This document shows positions 24,308-26,750 of a stretch of 64,000 nucleotides of DNA, one piece after another. The DNA is taken from positions 62,001-126,000 of the forward strand of contig JAIOZK010000010.1 of assembly GCA_021740625.1 (NCBI GenBank), given 5' to 3'. Position numbers and translations under genes: made by a program. The stretch's first letter is position 1. Each line of letters begins with the position of its first letter. Under the pieces are notes generated by a model. That model worked only from the letters and a program-made list of their open reading frames with translations, was not told the DNA's origin and searched no databases. The stretch comes from Bacteroidales bacterium. Its GTDB lineage: Bacteria; Bacteroidota; Bacteroidia; Bacteroidales; JAIOZK01.

Positions 24308-24653
24308 AATTTTTGATTGATTAATTTTTTTATTCGTTTTATAAATTTATTGATCATTCCAGATCATAAGGCAATACATTCCGCTTTCAATCATTGCTTA
24401 TACTGATTTTTGCTATAAAAAAGTATCGTATTTAACAAGAAGCAGTTGCTTGCAGACTTTTTAGATATTTATTACTGCTCTCACTGATTGGTGCAAAGAT
24501 ATGATTTTGCCAAAACAACATTCTTCTATCATCCTGGCAAGTTGGCAACATTGTAGCTGTTTCCACAGCTATCCATGTTGTTCGTTTCATCTATGCCCTA
24601 CGATGTAATGCATTTTTTTTGCATATCCAGGTATAAACTTACATTCAATTTAC
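24308..24653. other. AT-rich intergenic stretch without recognised gene
   Basis: No credible ORF or RNA gene is seen. A minus-strand TATCTTTG at 24494-24501 could be a -7 element, but it is about 190 nt from the gene to the left and lacks a -33 match. Confidence 0.5.
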
Positions 24654-24661
24654 TAAATTTG
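24654..24661 (+). promoter_or_regulatory. Putative -7 element reading into the tRNA-like array
   Basis: TAAATTTG matches TAnnTTTG and would start a transcript near 24668, only about 5 nt before the first tRNA-like unit. The real tRNA-Gly(CCC) might therefore be made as part of a long precursor. No -33 match is present. Confidence 0.4.
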
Positions 24662-24672
24662 CTATCGTTATT

Positions 24673-24983
24673 GCGAATTAGCTCAGCAGGTAGTCCGCCA
24701 GCCGGCGGATTGCAAGCTGAGGTTAGCAGTATAAGAAATTAGTAATAAAGCGGAAGTAGCTCATTAGGTAGTCCGCCAGCCGGCGGATCGCAAGCTGAGG
24801 TTAGCAGTATAAGAAATTAGAAATAAAGGGGAATTAGCTCAGAAAGTAGTCCGCCAGCCGGCGGATCGCAAGCTGAGGTTAGCAGTATAAGAAATTAGAA
24901 ATGAAGGGGAATTAGCTCAGTAGGTAGTCCGCCAGCCGGCGGATCGCAAGCTGAGGTTAGCAGTATAAGAAATTAGTAATAAA
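24673..24983 (+). repeat. Tandem array of four 77-78-bp tRNA-derived pseudo-units
   Basis: The units start at 24673, 24750, 24828 and 24906 (lengths 77, 78, 78, 78), and the real tRNA-Gly begins exactly one unit later. Each has the tRNA 5' part (acceptor strand, D arm to GGTAG), then the palindrome TCCGCCAGCCGGCGGA in place of the end of the D arm and 5' half of the anticodon arm. It then keeps CAAGCTGAGG of the anticodon arm and replaces the T arm and 3' acceptor with AT-rich sequence (TTAGCAGTATAAGAAATTAG). CTCAG of the D arm could pair with CTGAG downstream around the palindrome. The units cannot form functional tRNAs. Confidence 0.9.
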
Positions 24984-25056
24984 GCGGAAGTAGCTCAGTA
25001 GGTAGAGCATCAGCTTCCCAAGCTGAGGGTCGCGGGTTCGAGTCCCGTTTTCCGCT
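24984..25056 (+). tRNA. tRNA-Gly(CCC)
   Basis: An intact 73-nt cloverleaf. Acceptor GCGGAAG/TTTCCGC has one wobble, the D stem is GCTC/GAGC, the anticodon stem TCAGC/GCTGA with loop TTCCCAA gives anticodon CCC, and the T arm is GCGGG-TTCGAGT-CCCGT. It is followed by a T run (CTCTTTTTT) and lies directly after the tRNA-derived array. Confidence 0.97.
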
Positions 25057-25061
25057 CTTTT

Positions 25062-25163
25062 TTAAACGCAGCGAACGCAAAGAAAAGTAATAGCTGCAAG
25101 GACCTGACAGTCAGTTTTCTTTTCTTTGCGTTCCTTGCATGACCTTACGAAGGTTACGTTTAA
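25062..25163. repeat. 102-bp nested fold-back element (copy A)
   Basis: The outer arms TTAAACG (25062-25068) and CGTTTAA (25157-25163) enclose AACGCAAAGAAAAG (25074-25087), which is exactly inverted at 25119-25132. A further pair is GCAAGGA/TCCTTGC. A similar element of the same length occurs at 51211-51312, with shared CGCAAAGA blocks. Confidence 0.65.
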
Positions 25164-25190
25164 GAACCCCTATTAAACAAGTTCTTCACT

Positions 25191-26750
25191 TTAATCATCA
25201 AAAACATCAAATTTGATCCCCTGTGCCAGGGGCAATTCCATACCGTAATTGATGGTATTGGTTTGCCTCCGCATATATGCTTTCCATGCATCCGAACCGG
25301 ATTCACGGCCACCGCCAGTCTCTTTCTCTCCTCCGAATGCACCACCAATCTCTGCACCGTTCGTAGCAATGTTCACATTGGCAATGCCGCAATCCGATCC
25401 TTCGTGGGAAAGGAATTTCTCGGTTTCGTGTATATTCTTTGAGAAAATGGCTGAGGACAATCCCTGCGGAACAGCATTGTGCATCTCAATGGCATCTTCA
25501 ATATTTTTGTACCGGATCAGGTACAGGATTGGGGCAAAGGTTTCTTCCTGCACGATGGGGTAGTGGTTTTCCACTTCTGCTATGCAGGGTTGTACATAAC
25601 ATCCCGATTCAAATTTCTCTCCTTCGTACACTTTGCCTCCGTAAATGATTTTTCCACCCTGATCCCTGATTGCTTGCTGCGCATCTTTGAAAGCATCAAC
25701 AGCTTTTTTATCGATTAGTGGTCCTACTACCGTGTTTTCATCCAATGGATGGCCGACCCGGATTTGTTCATAGGCCTTCATGAGCTTGTCTTTGAAGAGA
25801 TCATACATGCAATCGTGGATGAGTAAGCGTCTGGTGGAAGTACAGCGTTGTCCGGCCGTGGCAATGGCCCCGAACATGCTGGCTCGCAGCGCCATTTCCT
25901 TGTTGCCGTATTGAGAGATGATGATGGCATTGTTGCCACCCAGTTCCAGGATGGTTTTACCAAGCCTTTCTCCAACGATCTTTGCAACCCTTTTTCCAAC
26001 GGGTATGGAGCCTGTGACCGAAACCAGCGGTATTCTTTTATCTGCCAGAAAATCATCCCCGACATATTTGGAGCTAGCAGCAATTAGGTTTACCGTGCCC
26101 TCCGGTACATTGTTCTCTTTCAATACCTTTTGAATGATGTTATGCACTGCAATTGAGCATAACATCACCTTCGAAGAAGGTTTCCACAATACAACATTGC
26201 CGGCTATAAGTGCAATCAGTGCATTCCATGACCATACAGCAGTCGGGAAGTTAAAAGCTGTGATTACGCCTACGATTCCCAGCGGATGGTACTGATCATA
26301 CATCCTGTGATTCTTCCTTTCGGAATGCATGGTAAAACCGTAAAGCTGACGCGACTGTCCCACTGCAAAGTCGGCGATATCAATCATTTCCTGCACTTCA
26401 CCCAGGCCTTCCTGGTAGATTTTCCCCATTTCGTAACTGAGCAGTTTGCCGAGAGGCTCTTTGTATTTTCTCAGTTCGTTACCGATCTGTCTGACGATTT
26501 CTCCTCTTTTGGGTGCAGGGATCATTCGCCAAATTTTAAATGCCTCCTGGGCCCTGGCAATGATCTTTTCGTAATCATCCAAGGTGCCCTGTTTTATCTT
26601 TCCGATCAGTTGACCATCAGCAGGGGAGTGGCTTTCGATGTTATCCCCCTGGGTGTCGAACCATTCGGTACCTGTGGTTGCCCCGGGATTTACCTCTTTA
26701 ATCCCGAGCATTTTCAATGCTTCTTGTATATTATATTTGTCTTTTCTCAT
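25191..26750 (-). CDS. Aldehyde dehydrogenase, ALDH7 (aminoadipate-semialdehyde dehydrogenase-like)
   Basis: This 519-residue NAD(P)-dependent dehydrogenase has the catalytic Cys in [16 protein letters not shown], where ALDH7A1 has GTAGQRCTTARRL. The cofactor-binding and general-base regions are [19 protein letters not shown] and [17 protein letters not shown]7 enzymes oxidise alpha-aminoadipic semialdehyde and related omega-semialdehydes in lysine catabolism. Here the gene follows wtpA with a 9-nt gap, so it may be cotranscribed with the tungstate-binding protein. The physiological substrate in that setting is not clear. Confidence 0.9.

Follow-up and report, generated by a model that had tools for sequence, protein, structure and literature searches.

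Four tandem 78-bp units derived from tRNA-Gly lie directly 5' of the intact tRNA-Gly(CCC) gene in a 64,000-nucleotide stretch of Bacteroidales DNA, here called the window, and each carries a 16-bp palindrome, TCCGCCAGCCGGCGGA, in place of the end of the D arm and the 5' strand of the anticodon arm. This array is one case of a widespread Bacteroidota pattern that is apparently undescribed: a search of the open-access literature for palindrome-marked tRNA arrays found no earlier description, only SegB and mitochondrial work. On balance, the array is probably an ORF-less relic of repeated invasion of the tRNA gene by a GIY-YIG homing system. Because no GIY-YIG gene accompanies the window array, this origin is proposed by comparison with a sister species, whose tRNA-Asn and tRNA-Pro loci combine 5' units with such an ORF.

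The array at tRNA-Gly(CCC)

The original prediction of tRNA-derived tandem units in exact register with the real tRNA-Gly was confirmed by a repeat search, which gave a spacing of exactly 78 bp over positions 24672-24983, and by alignment to the tRNA (Table 1). Tandem Repeats Finder (TRF) scores the array at 578 with 93% matches. The described replacement by a palindrome and loss of the 3' part of the tRNA also held in all four units: tRNA nucleotides 1-22 and about 33-45 are kept with TCCGCCAGCCGGCGGA between them, while the T arm and 3' acceptor strand have given way to an A/T-rich spacer. Within the window, TCCGCCAGCCGGCGGA occurs only in the four units (at most 2 mismatches, both strands; 0.05 in shuffled sequence). 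The contig that carries the array (C6) has no PF01541 match, so there is no GIY-YIG gene at the array, and reading the ORFs of at least 120 aa around the locus (20.7-27.7 kb) revealed no integrase. An Rfam scan of 24500-25200 returned only the tRNA above threshold, with no intron core and no other RNA family. The inverted repeat beyond the tRNA is a possible terminator or repeat element.

Table 1. Features of the tRNA-Gly(CCC) locus, in window positions
Feature	Position	Strand	Evidence
TAAATTTG, Bacteroidota-type -7 promoter-like motif (TAnnTTTG)	24654..24661	+	Pattern scan; 10 nt before unit 1
Unit 1: tRNA-Gly 5' part, palindrome 24694-24709, 3' anticodon strand, A/T-rich spacer	24672..24749	+	Repeat search, alignment to tRNA
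Unit 2, palindrome 24772-24787	24750..24827	+	Repeat search, alignment to tRNA
Unit 3, palindrome 24850-24865	24828..24905	+	Repeat search, alignment to tRNA
Unit 4, palindrome 24928-24943	24906..24983	+	Repeat search, alignment to tRNA
Intact tRNA-Gly(CCC), parent of the units	24984..25057	+	ARAGORN; Rfam RF00005, 70.7 bits
23-nt inverted repeat 3' of tRNA-Gly(CCC)	25068..25138	+	Repeat search; arms 87% complementary

Is the array transcribed? The -7-like motif noticed ahead of unit 1 is real, although it lies twice as far away as the 5 nt first reported. No TAnnTTTG motif stands just before tRNA-Gly(CCC) itself, and the proposed cotranscription of array and tRNA is likely because the promoter-like motif precedes the array rather than the tRNA. 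A sigma-70 promoter scan found nothing above chance on the + strand. The arrangement recurs elsewhere. Of 26 tRNAs preceded by units, 13 have the motif no more than 60 bp from the first unit, and 1 has it that close to the intact tRNA; at other loci it lies some 10-17 nt before first units, or before tRNAs without arrays, and in array-less relatives it often sits about 10-13 nt before the Gly-CCC gene. As the motif is found before first units far more often than before intact tRNAs, the arrays sit inside the transcription unit. A position between tRNA promoter and intact tRNA would be expected if the original tRNA had been split and the intact one placed downstream.

Marked tRNA copies in two genomes and across the phylum

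The source organism's draft genome (G000; 4.0 Mb in 52 contigs) contains the exact 16-bp palindrome at 17 sites, and the genome of the sister species (G001) contains it at none. Reading of the contexts places 13 of the 17 in partial tRNA copies, namely, those of Gly (n = 4, the 78-bp window units), Ser-GCT (n = 3, 82-bp units), fMet (n = 4, 125-bp units plus one downstream copy), and Met (n = 2). The suggested search for the unit elsewhere thus had a divided outcome: in G000 the palindrome also marks broken copies of three further tRNAs, most of them at contig ends, whereas the window unit itself was not found in 40 relatives, nor was a Gly-CCC array in the order-level relatives examined. About 5 of the 38 tRNAs in G000 are affected. 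A T9SS sorting domain encoded on a contig other than that of the array is consistent with Bacteroidota. The fMet units have a second palindrome, TCCCGATAGCTATCGGGA, in the D-loop. tRNA-Arg(CCG), with copies bearing CCTGCCTGCCGGCAGGCAGG in the D-loop, is flanked by two GIY-YIG genes (87 and 83 aa) whose Pfam domain is near complete (58-61 bits). One palindrome-bearing tRNA-Arg copy (G000:C18:2604-2698; L177, 1604-1698) is an annotation trap, called "tRNA-???" by ARAGORN and scored above the family cutoff by Infernal.

In the sister species, nine tRNAs follow this pattern: Ser-GCT, fMet, Met, Val, Tyr, Asn, Pro-GGG, Lys-CTT, and Gly-GCC. In its Asn units, nearly the same segment is replaced as in the window Gly units, with a different palindrome (GGTTAG-AGTCCCGATCTTTCGGGATT-AATCAG), and both the tRNA-Asn and tRNA-Pro loci combine 5' units with a GIY-YIG ORF. 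Of the Gly-GCC units, spaced 63 bp apart, three have the anticodon arm deleted and no palindrome, and one has TCCGCCTGAGGCGGA. At tRNA-Gln(TTG) and tRNA-Arg(TCT) of this species (L306 and L282), downstream copies comprise the last 17-18 nt only, and a CGATATCGGG-like sequence immediately precedes three of the four.

The Ser arrays of the two species, with three units each, can be aligned over their full length, and the palindrome loop reads AGCC in all three G000 units versus TTA in all three G001 units. More generally, TCCGCC palindromes of the anticodon region have AGCC/GGCT loops in G000 and TTA, TCA, or TGA loops in G001. Other loops occur elsewhere in both genomes, including TGA/TCA in G000, and the change is therefore turnover within tRNA copies rather than one loop per genome. 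From these sequences, turnover of the palindromes in tRNA copies seems to be concerted.

Palindromes with the same arms are also found away from tRNAs, at 59 sites in G000 and 26 in G001. Another family with these arms, TCCGCCTACTGGCGGA, is dispersed over about 15-20 G000 sites; most share one orientation, and those whose contexts were read lie at gene ends. At one contig end (G000:C22:1-1000; L018), units of about 346 bp, GGGAGAGTATAGAGCCTGCC ... AGGGGCTTTTTT, are repeated in tandem, and the exact palindrome or a one-mismatch form is present in two. An exact copy lies in the spacer of an apparent rpmI-rplT pair, as judged by reading (G000:C49:31451; L022, 1501-1516). At G000:C9:19702 (L052, ~1455-1500), TCCGCCGATGGGCGGA and a second palindrome-like stretch stand between a promoter-like motif and a tRNA, with no evident tRNA copy.

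How far does the pattern extend? A GTDB-wide scan for a Met anticodon loop joined to the palindrome pattern returned 112 stretches, against a chance expectation of about 2 estimated from the size of the collection. Nearly all are from Bacteroidota, with some from Balneolota, Chlorobiota, Fidelibacterota, and KSB1. By a loose rule applied to draft genomes, 84 of the 112 have tRNA-like flanks; 63 of these 84 have a tRNA-Met, 49 have a GIY-YIG ORF within 1 kb, and the palindrome center is often 20-25 bp past that ORF. At tRNA-(f)Met, a frequent layout is an intact tRNA, then a GIY-YIG gene of 80-110 aa, and then a palindrome-bearing half-tRNA. Partial copies are mirror images of each other: 54 of 57 upstream copies have no 3' end, and 98 of 110 downstream copies are missing at least the first 8 nt. 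Perfect stems of at least 6 bp are present in 70% of partial copies, versus 10% of random windows and 39% of parent tRNAs, in a comparison of loci not chosen by palindrome, or chosen by tRNA only, that includes G000's own loci. Among 30 fMet loci chosen by tRNA similarity only, 2 have a GIY-YIG ORF, with a palindrome-marked copy at 1 of these, and the trait is therefore patchy. Similar arrays are present in records that bear the names of strains, such as Niastella soli, Longitalea luteola, and Pedobacter helvus.

GIY-YIG genes, a proposed homing model, and rival explanations

The GIY-YIG genes can also be approached without reference to the palindrome. In a sample of this kind, drawn from 148 genomes of the phylum, 9 of the 30 top-scoring PF01541 loci have an intact same-strand tRNA close by (Lys, Leu, Pro, Ser, Met, Leu, Asn, Val, and Lys). 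The tRNA is 5' of the ORF at eight of the nine, and reading found a palindrome-bearing partial copy at seven. In a tree of 111 GIY-YIG proteins, those associated with Met cluster together (SH-aLRT 95), those associated with Lys make up a second group, and 27 without a tRNA a third; the alignment has few columns, inner branching is weak, and most Met rows, unlike the others, were gathered via the palindrome. In G000 and G001 together, all three tRNAs flanked by a GIY-YIG ORF have 5' units, which occur at about 12 of 79 tRNAs overall; arithmetic from these counts puts the overlap at a chance of about 0.003. An intact ORF is missing at 9 of the 12 5'-array tRNAs. Small GIY-YIG ORFs also occur away from tRNAs (L193, L195, L199, and L200), among dispersed GTCATTCCGA...GGAATCTC repeats and with direct repeats on both sides; their proteins group separately in the tree.

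How might such loci arise? In the proposed model, a small free-standing GIY-YIG endonuclease with specificity for one tRNA group would cut the tRNA gene at the anticodon arm or close to it. Repair would then insert or tandemly duplicate a cassette with an intact tRNA beside it, an event suggested by the anatomy of the loci. The displaced tRNA half remains and, as seen in the arrays, has lost part of its anticodon arm, either to a short palindrome or by deletion. The altered arm would destroy the cut site and shorten the homology able to excise the cassette, and the marked half would be immune to recutting. The order of tRNA, ORF, and marked 3' half could supply both homology arms for break repair in a recipient tRNA. 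In autonomous cassettes, the ORF would lie on the 3' side of the tRNA and precede a 3' half marked by a palindrome, and ORF-less units would accumulate 5' of the tRNA, between promoter and intact gene, as in the window.

Several points count in favor of this homing model. (i) The same palindrome is in copies of four G000 tRNAs. (ii) An ORF and marked copies are together at G000 tRNA-Arg and at G001 tRNA-Asn and tRNA-Pro. (iii) The nine affected tRNAs of G001, the GTDB-wide Met stretches, the PF01541 loci with tRNAs and marked copies, the overlap of ORF-flanked tRNAs with 5' units, the mirror-image copies, the promoter position, the clustering of proteins by tRNA partner, and the SegB precedent (described below) agree with it. 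Counted against it are the absence of a GIY-YIG gene from the window array and its contig, the 9 of 12 5'-array tRNAs in the two genomes that lack an intact ORF, and the homogeneity within arrays, which plain unequal exchange would give equally well. Intact tRNAs also keep the presumed cut site, so the model leaves self-protection unexplained. The wider proposal is more tentative: Bacteroidota and neighboring phyla may harbor a class of tRNA homing in which target-specific GIY-YIG lineages invade at the anticodon arm, the tRNA is regenerated, the displaced half's anticodon arm is overwritten by a palindrome from a genome-specific, concertedly changing family, and some dispersed palindromes are scars.

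Could simple duplication suffice instead? Slippage or unequal exchange might have tandemly duplicated the 5' half of the tRNA together with its leader. A Y1/RAYT-type transposase or gene conversion would later have carried REP-like palindromes into these nonfunctional copies, and the GIY-YIG genes would be separate passengers that also favor tRNA loci. Units of one array are indeed nearly identical and change together between species, same-arm palindromes do lie away from tRNAs in both genomes, and Y1_Tnp is encoded in both (two PF01797 matches in G000, neither near the window array, and three matches in G001). We nevertheless hold this account unlikely. GIY-YIG ORFs abut the marked half at a near-constant distance in dozens of genomes, their proteins cluster by tRNA partner, and palindromes strike the same segment in unrelated tRNAs. 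Nor was a constant GTAG/CGTC-type tag seen in the contexts read: at the 17 exact G000 palindromes, GTAG precedes the Gly copies only and is the tRNA's own GGTAG. The replication slippage first suggested may have multiplied the units, but alone it explains neither the palindrome swap in many tRNAs and species nor the adjoining GIY-YIG genes.

It is less probable still that the units have a function within the tRNA transcript, as hairpin leaders that insulate its fold or tune its processing, or as decoys for tRNA enzymes. Each window unit is predicted to fold as a single long hairpin (fold z, -1.6 to -6.1) with the palindrome at the tip. The enclosing CTCAG/CTGAG stem proposed earlier is at its base in the minimum-energy fold of all four, although unit 2 reads CTCAT, leaving CTCA/TGAG, and so loses a pair without compensation. 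In the predicted fold of the 414-nt array transcript, the intact tRNA-Gly is still a cloverleaf. A leader role agrees with the position between promoter and tRNA and with the persistence of orthologous three-unit Ser arrays, palindrome arms kept, in two species. In three of five arrays, the predicted folding of the tRNA is better when the native palindromes are kept than when the anticodon segment is restored; the other two show no such effect, and modeling thus gives a weak indication that palindromes insulate tRNA folding. Further against a function, the window units revealed no covariation or compensatory changes, the unit is missing from the 40 relatives, and three G001 Gly-GCC units do without any palindrome. 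A decoy is unsupported, given the missing anticodon and 3' acceptor strand, the array's absence from order-level relatives, and the lack of compensation. A conserved functional RNA was rejected on the same lack of covariation and of the unit in relatives, and of any Rfam family except tRNA.

There is next to no chance that the array is an assembly artifact; the draft is in 52 contigs and several sister arrays end contigs, but the four window units are not identical and stand within a single contig, and like arrays are in named-strain records.

Known systems and significance

Cyanobacterial SDR, which are very small mobile repeats, and Rickettsia palindromic elements are likewise palindromes, some 20 bp long, that reside within genes for structural RNAs or proteins. 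Those described here differ in residing in nonfunctional tRNA copies beside an intact tRNA and a nuclease gene. Group I introns of tRNAs likewise involve homing nucleases that exploit the anticodon arm; by contrast, the window locus has no intron core, and the tRNA would be restored by duplication, not splicing. REP/RAYT systems (PMC3733652) share short dispersed palindromes, some in tandem, in or near genes, as well as the Y1_Tnp matches in both genomes, whereas the present palindromes are concentrated in partial tRNA copies with a GIY-YIG ORF adjoining and show no constant tetranucleotide tag in the contexts read. Integrative elements that target tRNAs (PMC9897764) also keep the gene intact and leave a fragment. 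Here, however, the junctions are in the D, anticodon, and T arms, the units measure 63-350 bp, and the ORFs read at 20.7-27.7 kb of the window include no integrase.

SegB of phages T4 and T6 is a free-standing GIY-YIG homing endonuclease of a tRNA region, and tandem repeats of a tRNA plus nuclease-gene segment depend on this nuclease, with microhomology between the tRNA 5' end and the nuclease 3' end (PMC13096335). How the intact tRNA escapes its own nuclease is called open there (PMC13096335). The Bacteroidota loci resemble this system in having free-standing GIY-YIG genes beside tRNAs of many isotypes and tandem repeats containing tRNA sequence, the latter represented by the four 78-bp units and the other arrays. 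A GIY-YIG ORF at the locus is lacking at the window array and present at G000 tRNA-Arg, at G001 tRNA-Asn and tRNA-Pro, and in dozens of genomes. In the phage genomes, whole tRNA genes are amplified, and PMC13096335 describes no exchange of an anticodon arm for a palindrome and no half-tRNA remnants; the Bacteroidota loci, in contrast, involve chromosomal tRNAs, proteins of 80-110 aa, and marked halves.

The pattern explains some breaks in assemblies at tRNAs as well as at least one doubtful tRNA call. If the homing model is true, the many small GIY-YIG genes, dispersed short palindromes, and tRNA fragments of Bacteroidota would be joined in one mechanism, and homing nucleases would be seen to inhabit essential tRNA genes on cellular chromosomes with no intron involved.
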